From Lagopus muta (lineage: Eukaryota; Chordata; Aves; Galliformes; Phasianidae), in the NCBI RefSeq assembly GCF_023343835.1, contig NC_064437.1, forward strand, positions 5,408,001-5,472,000: a DNA stretch of 64,000 bases, read 5' to 3'. Positions 35,801 through 63,820 of this stretch are shown in pieces (position 1 is the stretch's first letter; the number at the start of each line of letters is the position of its first letter). Both the position numbers and the translations under genes were made by a program. The notes under the pieces were generated by a model, which did no database searches, was not told the DNA's origin, and worked only from the letters and a program-made list of their open reading frames with translations.

Positions 35801-38800
35801 AATCTGCATGGCACTACATAGCTCACTGCAGATGACTATAAAGCTCTCAGGAAATACAAGAATTAATACATTACAGACATTTCTTACTGTTTACTACACT
35901 GTTGTTCAGAGCCCTCCAAGTACAGTCTGAATGAACAAACACACTTTCTGGGTAAAAAAGTACATTACTGCAGTCTGTACTGCTTCCTTAGCCTGGGTAC
36001 TGTACAGCAAAGAGTAGCATCCACCCCCATCTGCTGACTGTGATTGCTGCCTGAGCTACGGCCACTGCACCGTGTTCACTAGAATCTTAACAGAAATGTT
36101 ATGTCCAACATTACCTGTAGGGTGACACAGCAGAACTAAGGTAAATTACTCTGGGAGGTTTCTGGGAGTGGTTCATGGAAAAGAGCTTCCCATTTTTAGA
36201 GACCAGAGAAGTTTACCAGACCACAAAAGGATTCATGGCAAGTTATAGGCATGACAGATTATGTGGACTGGATTTTCAGGTAGAACTAGGACAGGACTCA
36301 GTGCAAGCAGAAAGAAAGGGTAAATAGGACAGCAAAGGCTATTCCAGTTGTATCAGTTTGTAGAAAAGCTTTTGCAGTCATCTGGCCATTGAGCAGCACC
36401 ATTACATCCCCTGTAACTCCAGCAATCCCTGCACACTGGGGTACAGCTATTAATTCACAACTGTGTATCTGTGGCTGCTTGCAAGTCACTAAAACAGAAC
36501 AAAACACAAGTGACATAGCAAAGGTAAAGGTCTGGCCTTAACTCCTAGTGAACTGCCCTGGAAACTGAGACATCTCAAGTAGCCTCACTTCTGTCTTGTT
36601 TGGAAAAATGGAGAGCAGCCTGCACCATCGTTCTAGATTGCCTTTTCTCAGAGGGCAATTAGCTCCTCCTGTGATTGGGTCTGCAGCAATCAAGCAGTGA
36701 TGTGGTCTGATGTTCAGTGATAATGGAACTCTGGTGTGTGAATTCAAAGCACTCACCAAGACCTGTGCTTTTCAATGACAGTATCTGAGTCTATGTCTTT
36801 TCATCTCAACCTACCAGAGGAATGCATAACAGCACAGCTTTTACTAAGTGTATTTTAAATACTTGTGCTTTTTTTTTTGTAGATGTACTACTATATCAGA
36901 GGAGGCAGACAGACACAGGTGCAAACTACAGGCCTGAATCTCACCAGAAAGTTTCGTTGTCCATTCCTTCATTAGTCAGGTAGTTATTCTGTAAGTACAG
37001 CTCCCGCAGGCCTGTAAGTTCACTGAAGGCTCCTTTGGGAATCTTCTCTAGCTTGTTGTTCTAGAGTCATCAGAAGCACATTGCACATTATTTAGCATGA
37101 AACAACATAGGACACACAGGTTCTGCTCAGCTATTACCAGGCAATTAAATTTCAAAAGAGCTAGACTTCAGGTGTTTCACTGGAAGTTTTAATTCCACCT
37201 AAGAAATAAATACAAATACTAGATAAAAAGTATTACAACTAAGCACAATAATTGATTTCCAGTTGAATTTTTTAGGCTAAGAAGTTACACTCTGGCACTC
37301 CAGAAGGGTTTCATTTTGTATTCATACAGCCCTTGTACCTATGTACACATCTACAGTGTAATCCAAGTAAGTGGCCCTGTAGTTTGCTCAGAATTTCTGA
37401 TTTGCTCAGATTTTACCATAAAGAAGAATCAGTTTGGAAGCTGGGAACCAGCCATCCTTCCAGTGTTTGACATTTGAAAAGGCTCAGTTCCTGCAGTGTA
37501 GATTCTGAAGCAATTATTCCTATTGCTTTAGTGCTGCTTTTGAGTAGCCAGCCAGCAGACATGAACAAAATGCAAAACTAAATTCCATTTATGAATTCCA
37601 TACAGGAACTGTAGGAATTATAAAAGTACACATAAAATATTGAAACTGAGTTTGTTTAACTTCCCACCCTTCACAGAATCACAGAATCACAGAATGGCCA
37701 GGGTTGGAAGCTCCAACCCCCTGCCACATGCAGGGCCACCAACCTCCCCATTTCATACTAGACCAAGCTGCCCAAGGCCCCACCTCTAGGGATGGGGCAT
37801 CCACAACCTCTCTGGGCAGCCTGTTCCAGTGCCCTTCAGGTACAAGCAATAATGTGAGGAGCAGACTAGACTAGGCATGGTCCCAATTCATGTAAAGTGG
37901 ACACCATCACAGAGAGACTTGGCTGCAGATTACAGTGAAGAGTGAAGAAAAAGACCTGTCACACCTACAAGTACTCTTTCAATCAGTATTTCGTTTCTCA
38001 CTGCTGTGTTCTGTTAACTTGTCCAGTTAGATGACAGGCAGTGCACTTGAAAACAAAATGCTTGTTTCCCTCTTTCATTTTTCTGCCCTGAACACAGCTG
38101 GGACAGCAGGGAAGAATATGAGTCCTGAAGAACAATCCCTGAAGGCTAAGCCTTCATCTAGGAGATAACAATTACTTATGAATTGCAACAAAATCCAGGG
38201 CTTTAGTAACTTCATAATATGGCAGACAAAATCTTTGCCTTCTTCAACCTACAGAAGTCTTTGTAGAAGTTTTGTAGAAGACTTTAATGGAATTTAGCAT
38301 GAAACCTTCAAGGGAAAAGGAAGCTGGGAGGCAACACAGAATGTCACAAGTCCAAGGGCTGGTAGCAGGTGTTCAATGACTTTTTTTGCCTTAGTCTTCA
38401 CAGGCACAGGCTCTAGCCATACCACCCAAGCTGCAGGAAGCAAAGGTAAGAATTTGGAGAAGGAAGATCTGGCTCTGGGGGGACCTGAGAGCAGCCTTCC
38501 AGTACCTGAATGGGGGCCTACAGGAAAGCTGGGGAGGGAACAGAACAGGTAGCAACAGGACAAGGGGAAACAGCCTTAAACTGGAAGAGGGTAGTTTTAG
38601 ACCATGTGTTAGGAAGAAATCCTTTACCTTGAGAGTGGTGAGACACTGGAACAGGTTGCTCAGTTAGGTTGCAGATGCCCCCTCTCTGGAAGCATTCAAG
38701 GCTGTGAATGACGTGGTCTAGTGGGCAGTGTCCCTGCCTACAGCAGGGGGTTGGAACTGGATGATCTTTAAGGTTCCTTCCAACCTAAACTCTTCTATGA

Positions 38801-47800: not shown

Positions 47801-49043
47801 AACATTTAGATCATTTATGAATTTAGTGTTTTAGCATCTAGGAGGCTGAAAAAGGAGACCTGCTGTACTGGAAGCCAAGCTAATACACAGAAAGTGACAG
47901 CTGCTGTTCCAAAGTAGCTTTCCTGTTTTTGGCATTAGAGCAGGAGCCATGCCTAGCACATGCCTGGAACAGATCTGCTGAAGAGGGTGCCAGCTGACAT
48001 TACAGTTTTTCTAACTACACAGCACTTGGATGGAAAGCACTGTACAAAATCTGCATGCTACCCATTGACCAGCCTTGGTAAATAGGGGCAATAAACAAGG
48101 TTGAGGGCTAAAGTACAGTGAGTGAAGCACCAGCTGTCTGAACATCACAGCCAGCAGCACCCACAGCTGCAGCACTCTCTGGGCACCGTCCCTGGGCCTG
48201 CTGGTGGCTCCAGCCAAGCTTCAGGCGCCTCCCTGGGCACACTCTGCTTACAATACTTTAACTAAGATGTAGAATTGTGGAATCATGAGGGCTGGAAAAG
48301 ACCTGTAAGATCATCTGGTCCAACTGTCCACCTACTGCCAATACTGCCTGCTGACCACGTCCTGCAGTGCCACGGGGACAATATATCCAACCTGAACCTG
48401 CCTGGTGCAACTGGAGGCCATAGAGCTCCCACGTAGGGCTGCCAGAAAGTTTCTTATTAGCTAAAGGAGTCTAGTCCATGCTTTTCATAGACAACTCAAA
48501 ATCAAAGACCTTCACCATGAAAAGCAATTCATACTTTGGACAAAAATTCTTTGTTTGGACCTGGGGAGAGAATAAGGAGAAAAAAAAAATCCAACCTTTT
48601 TTCCTCCCTTGATGTGTGGGGAGAGAATTAAGGTGAAATCTCCCCTCTGCTCTGGGACAGGAATGGCGGGGTGGGGGAAAGGAGATCCTGAGATGGTGGG
48701 AGACCCACAGGTGGGCGAGGGGAACCAAGTGCAGCACCAGCATCGGGCCCGCTGCTTCCAGCACACAGCAAGGAGGCAGGATAGAACCAGGGTGGGCGAT
48801 GCAGACGCTTACCTGCAGCGAGAGGTGGTTGGTCAGCTCCGGCAGCAGCAGCGGGAACTCCTTCAGGTCGATGCCACCGCAGTCCACGACGCCCTCCTGG
48901 GTGCAGCCGCAGTCACGGGGGCAGCCGTGGGCCGGGCCTGGTGGGCGCCTTCGCCCCACAACACCCTCGGGGAAGTCGTTGGCGGCGGCACAGCCCAGCG
49001 CCAGCAGCCCCAGCACCAGCAGCTCCCGGCCCCCGGCTGGCAT
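29682..49043 (-). CDS. PODN: PODN (podocan), complete coding sequence, nine coding exons
   Basis: Podocan, a secreted class V small leucine-rich proteoglycan of the extracellular matrix; the family binds collagen and restrains smooth-muscle growth. Coding exons in transcript order: 49043-48813, 47302-47209, 45686-45622, 42104-41995, 39736-39580, 37060-36945, 35384-34727, 32058-31910 and 29844-29682. They sum to 1,743 bases, exactly 581 codons including TGA, and every junction is GT-AG and in phase. The protein has a signal peptide ([20 protein letters not shown]), an N-terminal cysteine cluster [15 protein letters not shown], about 20 LRRs of the LxxLxLxxNxL type, and an acidic tail ([15 protein letters not shown]). 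Sequons include NGS, NET, NLS and NTS. At 580 residues it is somewhat shorter than human podocan (about 613), mainly because of a shorter, basic N-terminal spacer. It lies tail-to-tail with SLC1A7 and in the same direction as SCP2. Confidence 0.96.
31910..32058 (-). CDS. PODN: PODN exon: [16 protein letters not shown]
   Basis: It encodes [20 protein letters not shown], then [20 protein letters not shown] and TPKLKGIYL. The acceptor is ctgtctcttacag and the donor is gtgagt. The last Arg codon is split with the final exon. Confidence 0.95.
32202..32217. repeat. 16-bp perfect AT palindrome
   Basis: atgtatatatatacat, in a PODN intron. Confidence 0.85.
33305..33370. repeat. AT-rich tract with 12-bp direct repeats
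   Basis: cttaatatgagt occurs at 33,342-33,353 and 33,358-33,369. A similar cttaatgtgagt lies near 33,306, and between them is attaat-type repetition. Confidence 0.7.
34197..34262 (-). other. tRNA-like sequence (SINE head or tRNA pseudogene)
   Basis: The reverse strand reads TTAGCAGCTCAGCTGGCTAA, then GGCACCTGGATAGCACTTAGG and AGGTCTGGATTCAATC. The first part resembles a tRNA D arm/A box (AGCTCAGCTGGCTAAGGC). CCTGG/TTAGG can close a 7-base anticodon loop with T33 and anticodon AGC. The last part resembles a B box with one irregular base. The T stem and acceptor stem do not pair well, so it is not a working tRNA gene. Confidence 0.4.
34727..35384 (-). CDS. PODN: PODN large exon: central LRR block
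   Basis: A 658-base exon encoding about nine consecutive LRRs, from [20 protein letters not shown] through [20 protein letters not shown] and [20 protein letters not shown] to [10 protein letters not shown]. The acceptor is cctgctttctcaag and the donor is gtagaa. The open frame runs on upstream and downstream of the splice sites, but phase and homology fix these boundaries. Confidence 0.96.
36945..37060 (-). CDS. PODN: PODN exon: [15 protein letters not shown]
   Basis: It encodes [20 protein letters not shown], then [18 protein letters not shown] and TG of a Trp codon. It contains the NET sequon. The acceptor is gatgactctag and the donor is gtgaga. Confidence 0.95.
37672..37840 (-). mobile_element. 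CR1 retrotransposon fragment
   Basis: It begins with three cacagaat repeats and reads through ggttggaagctccaacccc and ggggcatccacaacctctct to the ctgttccagtgccctt motif, all CR1 3' region in reverse. It is about 170 bases, in a PODN intron. Confidence 0.9.
38455..38807 (+). mobile_element. CR1 retrotransposon, longer 3' fragment
   Basis: About 350 bases ending in the CR1 tail ttctatgattctata. Typical inner motifs include gggggacctgagagcagcct, ttaaactggaagagggtag and gtggtctagtgggcagtgtc. It lies in the same PODN intron as the 37,672 copy, in the opposite orientation. Confidence 0.92.
39580..39736 (-). CDS. PODN: PODN exon: [16 protein letters not shown]
   Basis: It encodes [20 protein letters not shown], then [20 protein letters not shown] and [12 protein letters not shown]. 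It contains the NGS glycosylation sequon. The acceptor is tcttctggcag and the donor is gtaatg. It ends in phase 0. Confidence 0.95.
41995..42104 (-). CDS. PODN: PODN exon: [15 protein letters not shown]
   Basis: It encodes [20 protein letters not shown] followed by [16 protein letters not shown]. The acceptor is atttctctttcag and the donor is gtaagg. The last Arg codon is completed by the next exon. Confidence 0.94.
44785..44798. repeat. (AG)7 microsatellite
   Basis: A short pure AG run followed by a purine-rich stretch, in a PODN intron. Confidence 0.85.
45622..45686 (-). CDS. PODN: PODN exon: [15 protein letters not shown]
   Basis: A 65-base exon encoding [20 protein letters not shown] and a final K. 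The acceptor is ttgtttttaag and the donor is gtaaga. It ends in phase 0. Confidence 0.94.
47209..47302 (-). CDS. PODN: PODN exon: [15 protein letters not shown]
   Basis: It encodes [20 protein letters not shown] followed by [12 protein letters not shown], with the last codon split. The acceptor is tctctgttttcttag-like and the donor is gtaatg. Phases agree with both neighbours. Confidence 0.94.
48270..48440 (-). mobile_element. CR1-like fragment, divergent subfamily
   Basis: tagaattgtggaatcatgag, then gctggaaaagacc and agatcatctggtccaac is the CR1 3' end in reverse, followed by a body with the gtgccacgggg pattern of older CR1 types. It is about 170 bases, in the first PODN coding intron. Confidence 0.75.
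48813..49043 (-). CDS. PODN: PODN first coding exon: signal peptide and Cys cluster
   Basis: The start ATG is at 49,043-49,041. It opens a hydrophobic signal peptide ([14 protein letters not shown]), then an arginine-rich spacer ([11 protein letters not shown]), then the four-cysteine N-cap [15 protein letters not shown] and the first LRR up to NHLSLQ. The donor is gtaagc in phase 0. A good acceptor (ctctctctgttccag) lies only five bases before the ATG, so a separate noncoding first exon probably lies to the right. Confidence 0.93.
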
Positions 49044-49048
49044 CGCCC

Positions 49049-49320
49049 CTGGAACAGAGAGAGGGGTCAGCCCGAGGTGGGAGCCGCCCAGCAGCCCGGC
49101 CTCCTCCAGCCTTCGGCCCAGAGCCCTCCCTGAGCTGAGGGAACCACGTTCCTGCTCTCCCCACGTGCCCTGAGGTGTTCCCGCTCTCCCTGTGTGCTCT
49201 GGGGTGCTTTCGAGGCCCCGCAGCCCAACTGCTGAGGCCTGAGCTCCCCACAGGCCCCCAGCTGGGACCCCCGCCCCACTGCTGACCACTCACACTGTTT
49301 ATTGCATCTTTCATATTGAG
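49049..49320 (-). promoter_or_regulatory. GC-rich PODN upstream region
   Basis: The sequence just upstream of the first coding exon is GC-rich, with a GC box (ggggcggggg at about 49,265-49,275 on the - strand), a CACGTG E-box at 49,162-49,167 and an imperfect 29-bp tandem pair at 49,148-49,205. It is either the promoter or the last intron before a noncoding first exon; the acceptor at 49,049-49,050 favours the second reading for at least some transcripts. Confidence 0.4.
49148..49205. repeat. 29-bp imperfect tandem duplication
   Basis: Two adjacent 29-base units (49,148-49,176 and 49,177-49,205) differ at five positions. The first carries the CACGTG E-box; the second has lost it (tgtgtg). 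They lie upstream of the PODN coding start. Confidence 0.75.
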
Positions 49321-54974: not shown

Positions 54975-55580
54975 TGCCCTAGAGGCCAGCAAGGCACCCT
55001 AGCATATTTTAGACACTATAGAAGATTCCTGCAACTGTCCAGCATGTTTTATAGCCCCCTCTGTACTCTCAGATGCATAAAACTCCGAAGAAACCTCACT
55101 GCTTTCAAGACTGCAGAGGCCTCCCTGGGTCAATAAATACACCCTCTGTGATCTAGTTTGTCCTAGAAGCTTCCTAGTATGCACTTAGAGAACTCCACAG
55201 AGCCCCCCAGGGTACTCTAGGGCATGCTAGAGTGCTCCCAGGGACACTGAATGTGCTCTAAGCCACATTAGAGGCTTCCTAGTGTGTCCTAGAGGACACC
55301 CAGGTCCTCCCACTGTAGTCTAAGACACTCTAGAATGCTCTCATAACTCTTAAATGCTCTACAGAGTGCCATAAAAACATCCTAGTGTCCAACAGAGGAC
55401 TTCCAGGACTTCTCAGGCTTACTCGAGACCACCATAGTACAAATACAGCCCCTCAAGTGAGCTCTAAAGCACCCTGGAGACCTTCCAGGAACACTCAGTG
55501 CACTCCAGGGTCTATTAGAGCGCTTTCAGTGCTCTTCACTGTGCTCTGGCACATCCTATAGGAGGTACATCCTACAGCCC
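54975..55580. repeat. Degenerate minisatellite-like region
   Basis: About 600 bases densely built from diverged copies of short blocks such as cctagag, gtgctct, actctag and ttccagg. One clear repeat is tagaagcttcctagtatg (about 55,165) against tagaggcttcctagtgtg (about 55,270), 105 bases apart. The unit is too diverged to define by eye. It stops where the SCPx remnant begins. Confidence 0.55.
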
Positions 55581-55611
55581 ATGTGCAGCCTGGCCCTGCT
55601 CATCCTGCTGC

Positions 55612-55705
55612 CTGACACCTGCCAATGTTGATGCGATTGAATTTCATGACTACTTCTTTATTAATGAGTTCATTACCTACGAAGCTCTTGGACTCTGCCC
55701 GGAAG
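55612..55705 (+). pseudogene. SCPx thiolase exon remnant, inverted relative to SCP2
   Basis: Read on the + strand, 94 bases encode [15 protein letters not shown], then [16 protein letters not shown] and the first base of Gly. This matches the SCPx thiolase segment that in the family reads ...DVIELHDCF...[11 protein letters not shown], by my estimate about two thirds identical. Directly after it comes a plausible donor (gtaaca at 55,706), and it breaks in the same phase that the next SCPx exon needs. The Cys of the HDCF motif is Tyr here, so the thiolase site would be damaged. To its left the sequence changes at once to a degenerate minisatellite. It is opposite in strand to SCP2, keeps an exon border and so is not a processed copy. 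Confidence 0.8.
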
Positions 55706-57422
55706 GTAACAGCATTACTGAAGCACACTGTTGTATGAAAATGGGAAGTCTTACAAATATCTTTTTACTTCTTCATATCAGTTGTGTACTGGACAGATCT
55801 CATATATCTGAATGCCATATTAGCTAACCTCACAGGAGGAAAAAGCAAGCTGCCTGTGTAGTAACATAAAGATGTGTAAATTGTAGGAAGTATTTAACAA
55901 ATTGGTGTATTATCGTGATTTCTAGAGAAGTACAGAAGGCAAATTAAAGTGTTGGACAACTGTATGAAGTAACATGGCAAGTTTGTGAGATTAGGAGCTC
56001 CAGGATTGCAGTATGATGTAGTCTTTCTCTGAATTGTTTTTGAGTGATTTTGAGAAAACTGCATACTTTTGTCACTAGATGGTGTATTTTACTAAGTCTG
56101 AGCATTGCCAATGAGACAACTTCACAGACCTTCAGGAAACATTGCTATGCAGCCCCCCAGTGTTGATGATAATTTTGCAAGTAATTCCTCTCAGAGACAG
56201 CAAGGCAAAGATACTTTCACAGCAGTCACTCATTACAACTAACCTTCCTTTTACAAAAGAAGACCCATACATTTCATGGTAGCTTCCTTAATATAACAAC
56301 AATAATAAAAGCTATTTCTGTTAAGTTTGGGATCTCAAAATACTTATCTGATATTATTCCAACAGACGGTCACTTCTGTCCCTGTTTCTCAGCAGCACAG
56401 GTTTTCCTTTGTGTTCTTTCACATGAGATGGCTCTTGAGGAGCATTGGGATTTGTGAGGATAATGCACCTTCTCTGTTGGGAATGAGCAGGTGGCAGGAA
56501 GCTGGAGAAGAAACCTTGTAAATAGCACACCTTAATTTAAATAGCTGCAACAGGTCGATCACCTGCTGTCAATTTGGGGTTAAAAAAAATAGTATTGGGA
56601 AAATTGGGAAGAAAAACACACCGGTTAAATGGGAGCATGGGTATCTGTGATGGAAGAATTCCATTGCTAGGGATGTGTTAATGCTTGGCAGTAGAGGCAA
56701 CTACTGGTGTCTGTGCCTCCCTCAATTTGAGAAGAGAACGCAATGCAGAACGTGCCGTGCCTGCAGGCAGTCATTTCCATTCCCTGCCCAGCAGCCATGA
56801 GGACAGCTATGTGCCCAGTAAGGGGCACACAAGTTCCCAAACCATTCCAGGACATGGCGCCCTGTGGGCACACAGTCCTTGGTGCTGGGGAGCTGGGGGC
56901 GTTTTGCTCAGTCTCAGACATGGATGAAATTACAAAACTTCTTACTGGTTCTTTCCATGATGTTTCCCTTAGGAACACATAAGATTCACTGCATTTAATG
57001 CAGGTTCTGCCTATGCCTTGCCCATGCAGCTGCTTATGGATAGGGATGGAGTTCTGCAGACAGTAAAAGGGAAGAAATTTGTCAGTGGAACTGAATCGTA
57101 ACTGCAGAATAGTACAGTGAGACAAAGAGAAAACTATCTTAAAACCAAGGCTGCACTGAAATGGGATTAATATTCATTTCAGGCCTCCTAAGAAAATATC
57201 TTCCGAGTTACCTGGGTGATAAAGTCTTGATGTTCTCAAATCATACCGCATGCATTTAATCTATTGTTAGGAAGGAAGATCACAGAGCACACCTGCAGTT
57301 CCTTCTGTCAACTAGCTAGGCCGACAGCAATTCCAATTGCAGTACAATTTGCAGTTGAGGAGTTGAGGAGTTTTTAATTCCATTGCAGTAGAGTACTACG
57401 TTCTTACGGCCATTTCTAATAG
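55706..57422. other. Interval between the two SCPx exon remnants
   Basis: If the remnants come from one duplicated block, this stretch holds the former intron(s) and the missing exon that in SCPx encodes the Gly-rich part up to GHPLGAT. I could not find that exon by eye on the + strand. Confidence 0.45.
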
Positions 57423-57600
57423 TCATAGAATCGTTTGAGTTGGAAAGAACACTTAAAGGCCATTGAGTCCAACCCCCCCTGCACTGAACAGGGACACCCA
57501 CAGCTCCATCAGGTGCTCACAGCCCCAACAGCCTGACCACTGGTGTCTCCAGGGACAGCCACACCAACAGCCCAGAAACATGGCTCGTAGGCACACACCA
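57423..57600 (-). mobile_element. CR1 retrotransposon fragment next to SCPx remnant
   Basis: catagaatcgtttgagttgg, then aaagaacacttaaaggcc and attgagtccaaccccccctg is a CR1 3' end in reverse. The body continues through gggacacccacagctccatc to the ggtgtctccagggacagcc motif. The right border is unclear, at or before the SCPx-like sequence at 57,610. Confidence 0.85.
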
Positions 57601-57609
57601 AGATGGCAG

Positions 57610-57711
57610 CCTGAGCACCATGCCCACAGCTCGTTCCAGCCACAAGGAGCCAGTGGGGCACAGCTGGTGCTGCAGCACAACCTGGGCCTCAGTGGGGGGA
57701 TGGCAGTGACA
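57610..57711 (+). pseudogene. Second SCPx thiolase exon remnant (+ strand)
   Basis: The + strand at 57,670-57,690 matches the real SCP2 exon (63,740-63,720, - strand) at 21 of 21 bases (LQHNLGL). The protein similarity runs on as SGGMAVTSL against GGAVVVTLY, then reaches TGA. To the left a looser match (cctgagcaccatgcc...agctc) begins after an AG at 57,608-57,609, where the real exon also begins, but with gaps and a lost frame. A CR1 lies immediately to the left. Together with 55,612-55,705 this gives two SCPx exon copies in the correct order on the + strand, 1.9 kb apart. Confidence 0.75.
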
Positions 57712-57776
57712 TCTCTGTGATGAAAGATGTGAAAGTTCATCAGTCCTGACCCACATACAGGAAGTGTGAGTAACAG

Positions 57777-57986
57777 TCTGAGGCAGAGTTGAAGAAGAAA
57801 AAAAGGATGGGCATGGAAGCCCTAAGTGACAATCTGTATAAAATACTCAATTTAGTGCACGAATATGAAATCTGTTTACAAATCCAAGGAAGAGATGCAC
57901 AGAAGAACAGGAAAATTATATTTAATTTTCTATTAAACTTCCAACCAGAATACATGTTCCCAAAACAGAAGTTAAAGCTTTTACAG
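57777..57986 (+). CDS. Unidentified exon-like open frame
   Basis: A 210-base frame of 70 codons lies between an AG and a strong donor (cttttacag|gtaaga). It encodes SEAELKKKKRMGMEALSDNL, then YKILNLVHEYEICLQIQGRD and further helix-like sequence to MFPKQKLKLLQ. A TAA lies just upstream in this frame, so the AG at 57,775-57,776 would have to be the acceptor, and its pyrimidine tract is poor. I do not recognise the protein. It sits 65 bases after the second SCPx remnant, on the same strand. It may be an exon of a decayed or unannotated gene, or chance. Confidence 0.3.
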
Positions 57987-58045
57987 GTAAGAAATTTATA
58001 ATGACCAACACCAGATTTTCTCAGGAGAAAACAGGTAAACATTGA

Positions 58046-58674
58046 TTTTATTCCCTCTCTGCTCTCCTGACAAACCTTACCTTTGTTCAAGATTAAGTGT
58101 GACCAAATTCTGTAAATCTCAAAGCAATCTCTAGCTACCTGTGGACAGCTTTAACTCCAAAGTAGTTATAAGAAAAGTATTTTATAGCAAATTCCTGAAG
58201 GCTAATTTAAAAACATTGTTAGAGATCCCCCTTAATAAGACCATTTTAATTTAAGCAGCAGCAGATTTGTTAGAAGTATGAAAGCATTCATATGATCTCC
58301 TATTACAGTCTTTCAAAAATGCAAATTTAAGTGATAAATCAAACTATTTCTAACCTTGCTCACTCTCTTCCCAACCTGAACAACACTATGCAGCCTCCAT
58401 CAACTCTGAGTTTTATTAAATTTTTCTTAGATTAAAAGAAAAATCTGTTCTCATAATACAAACCACAAAGCATTTGCAAGAGTTATTGCCTCAAGCTTAG
58501 CCTAAAAATCTTTGCCATCTACAAACTGATGGAATTTATTAAGCGTTAAGGTCTCTAATCACTGATTTTAGATGAGAGGTCCAAATAAGCCCTGTCTGTG
58601 TCATGTTATCAACATCCAGCATCATTCTAATTTGCTGTAAAGAGAATGAAGTAGCGACTGTTACTTCAGCAAGC
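58046..58674 (-). other. SCP2: SCP2 3' UTR
   Basis: The likely 3' UTR, AT-rich, with three possible AATAAA signals on the - strand (+ strand TTTATT at 58,535-58,540, 58,412-58,417 and 58,047-58,052). Which one is used cannot be seen from sequence. Confidence 0.5.
58535..58540 (-). terminator. SCP2 candidate polyadenylation signal (proximal)
   Basis: AATAAA on the - strand (cttAATAAAttcc), about 135 bases beyond the stop codon. Confidence 0.4.
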
Positions 58675-58770
58675 TCAAAGTTTAGCTTTCCCTGGCTGAA
58701 GTTGTAGGTTTTGAAGTTTCATTGCCATGCCCATGTTCCCAGATATCTTCAATTTGCCTTGAAAGAAGGC
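58675..58770 (-). CDS. SCP2: SCP2 last exon with AKL peroxisomal signal
   Basis: It encodes [20 protein letters not shown] and [14 protein letters not shown] is at 58,677-58,675 and the acceptor is ctctctctctag. The terminal Ala-Lys-Leu is a PTS1 peroxisome import signal. Confidence 0.96.
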
Positions 58771-61700
58771 CTAGAGAGAGAGAAAAAAACAAAAGCATGA
58801 AATGCAATAGCAATGCAACTCATGACCCAGTCATACTCCTCCCAAAAGTTGTGTTGTTATACTCCTGTAGGTGTTGGCCTGCAATACTGTAATTCCAACA
58901 GTCCTATCAGACTCCTGGCATTCATCAGCAATTGTTATTTTCTGACACTAAAAGGAAGAACAGAAGCCTGGGACAGTATACTGCCTATCTTTGTGATAGC
59001 TGAAGAGAATAGACTTGGTTCTGCACATCACTTGTGTTATCAGAAAGCCCTCCCAGCCATGCAGTTTTAGAGGAAGGGATTTATTCAAGTAATTTAAGCT
59101 GAAATATGCTTCCAAAATATCAGTATTATCACACTTTCATCTGTGTTACACTTACTGTCTGAGGATTCATTTTGCCAGTCATCAGAGCTAACAAATCAGT
59201 GTCAGCCATTGTAATTGTACAGTCTGCTTTCTTATCTGTAAAACAGAGATGACTATAAGATTCAAACAGACAGAACAGGAACACAAGCTGCAAATCCCCA
59301 AAGAATCTGCCAGCACTCCAGATCAGCACAATGGTACCTGAAGCACTCTGAAATAAAGGCCATTAAAAAACATCAATAAGAGATCACTTAAGAGCCAACA
59401 TGCATCTGAGCTGTATTGTAGCACAGACCACCTCAATGCTGAAGGAAGATGAAGCTTTCTGAAAAGTGCCAAGCAAACCCATCCGTTAAAACAAAATCTA
59501 CCTGTAATCACGTCGAATATTAATTACAAGTGTTCACAATCATCCTAAGTTTCACCAAGCTAGTAGTATAATCAACACAAAATGAAGGTGCTTTCCCTGA
59601 TGCTTTCCAAAGATACTTACCATTGAATTTCACTACCTTCTACTCAAGTGGGAACACGGGCATTCCAAAAGCTCTCATTTGAATTAATTGAAATAAAGAA
59701 GGTTTTTGCATCTTCTTACAAGAAATGACTGGATATTTTTAAACATCCAGATTTAAGTATTAATGCATATAGTAAAGGGCTAAAACCTTCACACACCTTT
59801 TCCTCCAGTCACTGTATTACTAAACCTAAGTCTTTGATAAAATCTTGCCCACGCAACAGAAAAGTGCTTTTCTCTCCATAATATCCTAGATAAATGAATT
59901 CCAAATCAATTTCTTCTCACGTTTTTAATTAAAAGCTTTATAACACAGGATCATGGGCAGACAAAATTTTGAGAACCGAATGTTATCTTTGGCCTGATCT
60001 TTACATTAAAAGGATGCAGGTATTAGACAAGACACTTCCATGGCAAAGGTACAAATCCTTCGCCTCCAATACTTTTATTGAAAACCCACCACCACCACCC
60101 AGTCCTCAAGTCTTATTTATTTATGTCCATGCAGTTGTTTTTAAAATGGACCTAAAGTTTATGTCAGCTAGTACAGCACTGAAATCAGATAAGTTTTATT
60201 GCTTAACTAGCTGCAGAGAAGGAACTAGACAAGATAGACCAGTCTACCACCTACTGGTGTCTCCCACAAAGCACCTGACAAAACAGAACAAAAACTAACA
60301 AATAAGAAGCCACACACACAAACCCACAGAACAAGAGTTCTGTTTACTTCCCTCCGGGTCCCTGTGGGAGTTGAGTGACCTGGCTGACAGGTACCTCTAA
60401 CAAAACATGCACCTACACACACAGAATTCACAGGAGGAGAAATCTTGGTCCTAAACACCATGGAATAGAAGTGTCAGTATTAAGAAAAGTTTATAACTAA
60501 AGTAACACTAACTCCAGTTTTGTTCAACATCACTATCGCTTCAGCAGAACAGAAGTTTATAATCACCTTATTCATCTTCTGCAATGACATGACAAAAATA
60601 ACACTGACCTGCATTAACTGCTACTGAGCCTTTACCATTCTTCACGTCTACTATCCAAGTCGCCTCCTTCCCACCAGGACCATCTTTTATTTTGAAGGCA
60701 AAGACACCACCAATTTTCTTGACAAACTGCTCTCCTTCCTGTAATGGACACGTAATATGCACATTAGTCATCTTCTTCAGAAGAATATTAAAACAGTTCA
60801 AATGCTTTAAAAAAACTTCACTCTTTCTACTAACAACTTCTATTACCTACAGAACTATTGCTTTCCTTCTACTAGCCTTTACTTAAACAACCAATGAGAA
60901 AACACACCCATGGCCATCTTTCTCTATTAAAATCTATCCAGCAAAACAAAAAAAGACAATTGCCCCAAAGGTCTTATCTTGCTGTCTACCAAAGTGTGAT
61001 TTCTTCTTTTACTCATGCCTACAAAGCAATAGATAACAAACACGTTGGTGTGAGTTCCTTGTATATGGCTTAAATGTGTCTCTACGCAAATACTCTTGTA
61101 CAGATAAGGGCTGTCTGAACAAAATGCTTTATGGTTCAGAACTGAAAGACATCTGACAGGGAACTGTTTCAACAAGCAGCACTGAAAAGGTGATTTATGG
61201 TACTGTATTTCCTCCAGGTTTTGCACATGTCCTGTCACAAATTAAAAAGGCTACAGGTAAAAGTAGTCCCAGAATACCTCTTGGAGCTTCTTTTCTATCT
61301 CTTTGAAGACCAAGTCTGACTTAAATCCATCAACAGCTGCGCTGAGAGGCACAGCCGTAACTCGGCCATCACTGGAGGGAAAAAAAGAAAAGAAAAACAC
61401 ATTTAATCACATTTTGAACATCTTCAAATTACTGCAAACAGGCCAACACCACTGAGAAGAGCCACACTGATACAACACAGGGCAACCCCACTAAATCCAA
61501 GCAGAACTGACTTCCTGAGGGTGAGGCAGCAGTGTCACAGCCACCTCCAGCACACAGCTGCTTCAGATGTGCAGGCAGGACTTGTGGCAAGGAAAGTAAA
61601 GCACCCAGATCAACCAGCCAACTCTATCGCCACACTGTGTGCAAAGACAGAAACAGCACAAACACCGCCTCAAGGACTACATGGACTACTTTTGGTTTTT

Positions 61701-63820
61701 TTTGTTGTCATCAAATAAACTCCTTTACAGAATGGATCCAGAAGTTCAGTTATTGTATTCCCAGAAACAATCCTAAGTTCTGCCACCTTGCTTAAGAACA
61801 TTTTGTAGTTAACATTATTTCTAGCTTCAATTTACAGTGGAAGCTTCAAAGATTCACTGCCCCATCACAGCTAATATGCCAGAAGTCTTTTCTTTCCCCA
61901 GAAGAGTGAGACTCAATCATTTTTATTGTTTCGAATACCTTCTATGAAATAGGTTGATACATTAAGTACCCAGTCAGTTGGTTACAACTTTTATTTTGTG
62001 TATTTAAAAAATTAACTGACTACAGTATCTATTTTGGGGGATTCTGCAACTGCCAAGAAAACCTTCAGCCCTAAGGGTCACTGGGCTCTGATTTACTTCC
62101 CACTTTCCCACTGAGAGCATTCCTGTATTTTGTGTACCTTCTCAACAAACCATCATCAAATCCAATGCTAAATGTCCTGCCCCAGCTCATACAAGACAGC
62201 AGTCATTCAGAGACCATCAGCGCTGCTTCCCCTTTTCCCTCACAATTCACATGCACCTGTTTGCTGTTTCAGAAGGTACTGAGCATTGCTCCTGATCCCG
62301 CAGAGCCATCAGCCCACATCTCTACTCTGCACACCCCTGACAGGAGCATGACAACTAATTCCACATTTGTGCAGGAGCACCTGGAGATTAATTGGGTATA
62401 GAAACATCCAAAGAAACAGCAATTCATGCAGTTTGTAATTATCATCATCTTCTCTCTTCGAACCAGAGTTCAAAGCTGTGGTCAGGTACGACACTGCTGA
62501 AGTGACAGAATCACTTAAAGAAGTGCTGCCAGAACTTATCTGCGTGGTGCTACGAGCAAAGCGCTCCAGTAGATGTTTGCTAGGGGAGCAATTGTAGGGA
62601 CTGTGTCATTTGAAGACAACACATAGCTGCTAATAAATGAAGGATGTACCTGCAGGATTTAAAGCTGCAAGGTAGCTATAAGAAGAAAAAAAAAAAAAGC
62701 AGCACTGTTTTAAGAACTAATCCATAACAAATCAAGTTCTATCATTTACATCTTAAATTCTTGGCAACTCTTACCAAACCCACAGGTTACGGGCAGGATC
62801 TGAATCTAATGAGTGGGTCTGTGCAGATCTCATAGCAGTGCAATGCTGCTGCCTTTCCCTCACTTACACAACGCACAGCACGGCTCAGTTACGTAACTGC
62901 TGCCTCAACACATCAGCTGCACTGTTTCATTCCAAAGTCTCTTACACGTTGATGGAACTCCCTGTGCCAAAGCCTTTCAGAGAGCAAGGGATCAGCAAAC
63001 AACATCAGTGCAGGTGAAACATGGACTGCAGAGGCTATGAGGCCCCAGCGCTACCAGGGCTGTGGTGTTCTGCCCCTGGAGGTGCCCACAGCCACGGCAG
63101 CAGAGCTGTGCTGGGAAGGCACTGAGGTGCCAACTCGACTGCTCTGTGAGTCTCTGCCTCAGGATGCACCTGTGAAATAATGAAGGCAATTCTCTATGCC
63201 AATGAAAGTGAATATAGGAAATATCGCCTATAGGAAATAAAGGCATTTCTTTGGGAGAACCTTCATCTGCAAAGCCTCCCACAGCTGACAGGAAGGCACT
63301 GTCCCTCGGCGCCTGGAGGTGCACCTTGTACCCACAGACAGCGCACTGCCCCCACAGCTCCCTGTGCTCACACGGAGTTTTACAAAGCTCAAAGCGACAG
63401 AAAAGCAGGGCACGGCCTACAGCATCGCCCTCAGAAAGCATCGCCCTCAGACTGCCAGCTGCGCCCAGTCGGGCTCTGAGCAGCAAGCCCCGGCTACAGC
63501 TCGTGCCTTTCCCCCACGGAAAGGCAGGTCGCGGTGCCGGCAGCAGATCGTCACGGACACCCGGCCTCGCGCACACACACGGTGCAGCCCCGCCGCTCGG
63601 AGCCGCTTCCCGTGCCGCACACACCACCCCATTCGGGGCTCTGTCCCCTTCAGGCCCGGCGCTCACCTGGCGGCTCCAGGGAAGCCCATGGCGTACAGCG
63701 TCACCACCACAGCCCCGCCGAGGCCCAGGTTGTGCTGCAGAGCCCGCCGCGCGCCGCCTACCTGCCGCTTCCCGGCCAGGCCGCGCAGCTGCCAGCAGAG
63801 TTCGGCGCACTGCGCCAGGC
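58675..63820 (-). CDS. SCP2: SCP2 (SCPx / sterol carrier protein 2), last five exons
   Basis: The gene makes two products: SCPx, a peroxisomal branched-chain 3-ketoacyl-CoA thiolase with a C-terminal SCP2 domain, and pro-SCP2, the lipid-transfer domain alone. Exons in transcript order: 63820-63667, 61371-61278, 60738-60609, 59235-59156 and 58770-58675. The first gives the end of the thiolase domain ([31 protein letters not shown]). Its internal ATG at 63,689-63,687 starts pro-SCP2 (MGFPGAAR). From that ATG the exons total 423 bases, 140 codons plus TGA, against 143 residues in human. The SCP2 fold is seen in [58 protein letters not shown] and [20 protein letters not shown]. The final AKL is a type 1 peroxisomal targeting signal. 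The remaining SCPx exons lie right of the window. Confidence 0.97.
59156..59235 (-). CDS. SCP2: SCP2 exon: [13 protein letters not shown]
   Basis: It encodes [20 protein letters not shown] and KMNPQT. The acceptor is ctgttttacag and the donor is gtaagt. It ends in phase 0. Confidence 0.96.
60609..60738 (-). CDS. SCP2: SCP2 exon: core of lipid-binding domain
   Basis: It encodes [20 protein letters not shown], then [20 protein letters not shown] and VNA. The acceptor is gtccattacag and the donor is gtcagt. It ends with G of an Asp codon. Confidence 0.97.
61278..61371 (-). CDS. SCP2: SCP2 exon: pro-peptide and helix 1
   Basis: It encodes [20 protein letters not shown] followed by [11 protein letters not shown]. 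The leading T completes a Ser codon. The acceptor is tccctccag and the donor is gtattc. In this family the first 20 or so residues are removed in the peroxisome. Confidence 0.95.
61372..63666 (-). other. SCP2 intron after the pro-SCP2 start exon
   Basis: A 2.3-kb intron. A run of A at about 62,685-62,698 and a GC-rich right end are the only notable features. A long frame over its right part is discussed and rejected below. Confidence 0.6.
63667..63820 (-). CDS. SCP2: SCP2 exon: end of SCPx thiolase domain and pro-SCP2 start codon
   Basis: The acceptor is tcgatgtttcag and the donor is gtgagc. The 154-base exon encodes [20 protein letters not shown], then [20 protein letters not shown] and [10 protein letters not shown]. 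The Met at 63,689-63,687 is internal in SCPx and is the initiator of pro-SCP2. Base composition is very GC-rich, unlike the other exons, because the exon sits in a CpG-rich promoter region. Confidence 0.95.

Follow-up and report, generated by a model that had tools for sequence, protein, structure and literature searches.

The DNA between the 3' end of SCP2 and the gene to its left holds what is very probably a small unprocessed pseudogene fragment, formed by an inverted, DNA-level copy of part of SCP2 that has since decayed. This relic reads on the + strand, whereas its parent lies on the - strand, 8-10 kb distant. It includes an intron of the parent, stands in the opposite orientation close to that gene and contains no intact gene, all of which are expected of an unprocessed inverted duplication. 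The window analysed here is a stretch of 64,000 nucleotides (C8:5,408,001-5,472,000) in a 1.03-Gb genome, whose repeat type and gene order seem galliform, and was extended rightwards with the adjoining DNA; coordinates above 64,000 refer to this extension.

The SCP2 gene and the structure of the relic

The preliminary description placed a working SCP2 gene on the - strand, which was borne out by tblastn with zebrafish and human SCPx proteins as queries. A near-complete set of exons runs from ~69,132 down to 58,678 on that strand, and the 3' UTR extends to at least 57,893, as revealed by a processed SCP2 retrocopy on contig C1. To the left of the relic an LRRNT-bearing frame is found at 48,660-49,052 on the - strand (Pfam E 7.6e-05, 22.7 bits, below the cut-off of 25.8), and it suits the start of a gene that we take to be PODN. 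A separate match joins 48,280-48,373 to 81,724-81,631 on the minus strand, right of SCP2 (95 columns, 72.6%); it is probably an interspersed repeat, since locus L019 on contig C3 is matched as well. At gathering thresholds Rfam matched nothing in the window.

Features of the relic and of the working SCP2 gene, in window coordinates
Feature	Position	Strand	Basis
Relic: last 96 nt of the SCPx thiolase HDCF exon (reading HDYF), lacking the exon's 5' part	55,610-55,705	+	82/96 identical to 65,221-65,126
Relic: following SCP2 intron, opening with donor GTAACA	55,706-56,300	+	495/579 aligned sites identical to 65,125-64,484, 13 indel events
Interval lacking significant SCP2 homology; expected place of the GHPLGAT exon, which is absent; repeat at ~57,423-57,524	56,301-57,654	+	
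Relic: middle of the SCPx LQHNLGL exon	57,655-57,710	+	ungapped match to 63,755-63,700 (-), 43/56 identical
Functional SCP2: HDCF exon	65,273-65,126	-	acceptor TTGCAG and donor GTAAAA, from sequence
Functional SCP2: GHPLGAT exon	~64,193-64,086	-	tblastn match, borders from sequence
Functional SCP2: LQHNLGL exon (GLAQCAEL...LQHNLGL), parent of segment 2	63,667-63,820	-	tblastn, borders from sequence
Functional SCP2: 3' part, SCP2-domain exons ~61,364 to 58,678, then 3' UTR	57,893-61,364	-	tblastn; UTR via the C1 retrocopy

Two + strand segments had been described as consecutive parts of the SCPx thiolase C-terminus. The first of these is only the beginning of a longer block, as local alignment to the full SCP2 gene matched 55,610-56,300 (+) with 65,221-64,484 (-) at 577 identities over 754 columns (E 4e-155). 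The homology thus continues directly behind the relic exon into ~600 nt of the parent intron, which the first description had missed. Over 675 ungapped sites the block is 85.5% identical to the parent (K2P 0.165), with 73 transitions, 25 transversions and 13 indel events between them. This divergence is even, the exon part being 85.4% and the intron part 85.5% identical, and it is this copying of an intron at the identity of its exon, in reversed orientation, that identifies the relic as a genomic inverted duplication and not a retrocopy, as had been proposed. A search of the whole genome with the DNA of 55,560-55,800 returned three places: the relic itself, the C1 retrocopy, and the parent at C8:5,473,022-5,473,221 (-), where both exon and intron matched.

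The order of the two segments is kept, and so is the donor of the first exon (AAG/GTAACA, the last exon base being 55,705), which looks as intact as had been stated. The claim that exon borders are preserved holds for that donor alone, as the homology starts 52 nt into the functional HDCF exon, the first 52 nt having no counterpart in the relic, and segment 2 likewise begins in the middle of its exon. Just upstream of the mid-exon break sits a degenerate repeat at ~55,164-55,540, which matches itself when shifted (152 columns at 68%) and which the tandem-repeat finder, run at its default threshold, did not report; a relative occurs at C2:106,750,985-106,751,174, at 71%.

The interval between the two segments has little to connect it with SCP2. 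Residual parent homology over 56,280-57,654 scored 19.5, in an alignment that starts in the tail of the first block, against a median of 13.5 and a maximum of 20.0 in 200 shuffles, and a genome search with 56,300-57,420, in which very common words were skipped, matched only the query itself. Neither tblastn nor alignment found a GHPLGAT exon between the segments. An interspersed repeat does lie there, at ~57,423-57,524, presumably a CR1 element, with relatives at 69-71% identity at window positions 38,700-38,800 and at loci L019 and L025.

Identity and coding state of the two segments

Segment 1 is clearly derived from SCP2. Its 31-residue translation (55,612-55,704) scores 53.5 bits against SCPx, where 100 dinucleotide shuffles of the window reached 30.0 at most, and a Pfam scan gave Thiolase_C_1 at 27 bits, slightly below the cut-off of 28. 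Another thiolase as the source was considered and rejected: amongst solved structures the best match is SCP2-thiolase type-1 with E ~1e-9, the next family following at 0.0017, six orders of magnitude behind, and beyond the relic itself the genome search recovered two places, one in the SCP2 gene and one in its retrocopy.

When this translation is set against its 31-residue counterpart in the functional gene, the relic alone deviates at five residues that are common to that gene, zebrafish and human, these being D>N, V>A, L>F, C>Y and S>F, a pattern that fits the expectation of decay. NEF occurs in both the relic and the bird gene, in place of the NEL of zebrafish and human, and this fits an origin from the gene of this lineage. 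The C>Y change turns the HDCF motif into HDYF, as first reported. HDCF and YDCF are named as motifs of SCP2-thiolases and SCP2-thiolase-like proteins in a passage of PMC12329534, and the cysteine of HDCF might be catalytic in SCP2-thiolases according to a passage in an insect thiolase study that cites earlier structures (PMC7682436). The relic has therefore lost a cysteine that has been proposed as catalytic.

Comparison of the relic exon with its parent over 93 nt gave dN 0.127 and dS 0.335 (NG86), values that come from few sites and include the constraint on the parent. Selection on the relic exon was rejected as a reading of this dN/dS below 1, because 93 nt are too few and the parent is itself constrained. 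Exon and intron have diverged to the same degree, in which there is no sign of constraint on the relic; judged from its sequence, the relic would make no protein and appears to have no function.

Segment 2 is much shorter and needs more careful treatment. The 21 identical bases encoding LQHNLGL, which had drawn attention to it, are real and sit within the longer match to the functional exon (76.8%). As protein alone the segment is marginal, with 32.0 bits for the zebrafish query and 28.9 for the human query compared with 30.0 for the best of 100 window shuffles, and a Pfam scan of the segment gave no families. As DNA it stands well clear of background: its core scores 45.4 bits, whereas the same exon finds nothing better than 25.4 bits in 95,892 bases taken from elsewhere in this genome. 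With gaps allowed in a looser alignment, 57,540-57,780 scored 85.7 against the parent exon, where the maximum of 300 shuffles was 78.4. The flanks of the segment show no homology to the parent, their scores being attained by 114 and 483 of 500 shuffles, respectively. The frameshift attributed to segment 2 was not found within the ungapped 56-nt match; the frame instead ends at a TGA (57,718-57,720).

In the functional LQHNLGL exon a 12-residue stretch includes RR, compared with GAKLALQHN in zebrafish, GAKVALQHN in human and GAQLVLQHN in the relic. From these readings RR may have arisen in the functional gene after the duplication.

Origin of the relic

It is very likely that a stretch of SCP2 was copied as DNA, from the middle of the HDCF exon through the next intron and probably as far as the LQHNLGL exon, ~1.5 kb in all, and that the copy was inserted in reverse into the gap between the 3' end of SCP2 and PODN, 8-10 kb from its source. 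Decay would then have removed or replaced the GHPLGAT exon and the adjoining intron, with a repeat landing nearby, and would have cost the relic the proposed catalytic cysteine and given it a stop codon. Both segments would on this account stem from one event, the middle having been lost later. Their spacing, 1.95 kb in the relic against 1.37 kb in the parent, with order and orientation kept, is in keeping with such a history.

The best-surviving alternative, which is nevertheless unlikely, confines the copy to segment 1 and its intron and makes segment 2 either a scrap of separate origin or a coincidental match. The small size of segment 2 (56 nt), its flanks devoid of homology and its weakness as protein are what might be expected of such a scrap, and a genome-wide DNA search with 57,570-57,800 returned the query alone. 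Set against this, the DNA score of segment 2 is far above background, and the segment lies on the right strand, in the right order and at a similar distance. Its lower identity compared with the first block (76.8% against 85.5%) would suit an origin in a separate event, and changes at CpG may account for part of this shortfall, 6 of the 13 differences falling at CpG positions of the parent.

The preliminary description also entertained the relic of a second SCPx-like gene, which would have been complete, once tail to tail with SCP2, and then lost. The tail-to-tail order and the retained splice donor are compatible with such a gene, but the + strand of the window yielded no upstream, GHPLGAT or SCP2-domain exons by tblastn, nor any further SCPx match above 22.7 bits (the best of 100 shuffles reaching 30.0). 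Moreover, the left end of the relic breaks within an exon, with the degenerate repeat just upstream, and no second intron-containing SCPx gene appears amongst the 13 best-candidate matches of the genome search described below. The existence of such a gene is accordingly considered highly improbable. A processed retrocopy, a class to which the SCP2 copy on C1 does belong, is ruled out to near certainty because ~600 nt of parent intron follow directly after the relic exon, where a processed copy would have exon joined to exon.

An inverted, local DNA-level duplication that has decayed is thus the preferred origin, and its age may be gauged from its divergence. The K2P distance to the parent is 0.165 for the relic, against 0.050-0.089 for four exons of the C1 retrocopy and 0.088 for its 3' UTR, and on account of its higher value the relic is probably the older of the two. 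The avian neutral rate is near 2e-9 per site per year, from which an age of some 40 million years may be estimated for the relic.

Other SCP2 copies and comparison with known systems

The search of the genome with the zebrafish SCP2-thiolase, in which only the best candidates were scored, gave 13 matches, comprising nine in the parent gene on C8, two in the C1 retrocopy and one each in the relic and on C3. The C1 retrocopy (C1:37,381,609-37,383,411; L007 4110-5912) has its exons joined and followed by the 3' UTR, contains in-frame stops and carries a deletion extending from the GHP region almost to the stop codon. Its BLAST pieces are 86-96% identical to the parent, with the 3' UTR at 91.7%. 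A kinship between this retrocopy and the relic, for which AIEF in place of the gene's VIEL was considered, was rejected, as only two sites are common to them in ~100 nt. A passage of PMC3136929 reports 78 retrocopies in chicken, and by that figure the C1 copy is of a kind uncommon in chicken. The match on C3 (C3:24,853,134-24,853,349; L025 4735-4950) is one orphan SCPx exon with ~45 nt of parent intron on each side, identical to the parent, whose exon lies at ~67,010-66,886, in 171 of 219 columns (78%). By its sequence it can be classed as a dispersed unprocessed fragment, on a contig other than that of the parent.

Together the relic, the C1 retrocopy and the C3 exon present one gene shedding copies via both RNA- and DNA-based routes. 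The relic itself is an ordinary decayed local duplication, the importance of which beyond annotation is small. It serves as a caution for gene predictors and aligners, in that an exon that resembles SCP2 and has a good donor adjoins that gene, and as a datable inverted duplication it is usable in comparing related birds. A literature search with exact phrases such as 'SCP2 pseudogene' found no papers in the library searched. Since the relic is an inverted intron copy just past the 3' end of SCP2, read-through transcripts would hold the complement of that intron. That they might pair with the intron in the same pre-mRNA, and so provide double-stranded RNA for editing or affect splicing near the HDCF exon, is a very remote prospect.

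With respect to SCP2/SCPx, that is, SCP2-thiolase type-1, two C-terminal thiolase exons of this gene have homologues in segments 1 and 2, whilst the HDCF cysteine, the GHP exon and the rest of a full gene are missing from the relic. The processed SCP2 retrocopy on C1 resembles the relic in being a dead copy of the same gene, but differs in having no introns, in including the 3' UTR and in being probably younger. The closest likeness is to unprocessed pseudogene fragments that lie beside their parents, as the relic is likewise local and cut short, keeps an intron, has diverged equally in exon and intron and forms no complete gene model. It differs from these by its inversion and very small size, and is otherwise nothing unusual.
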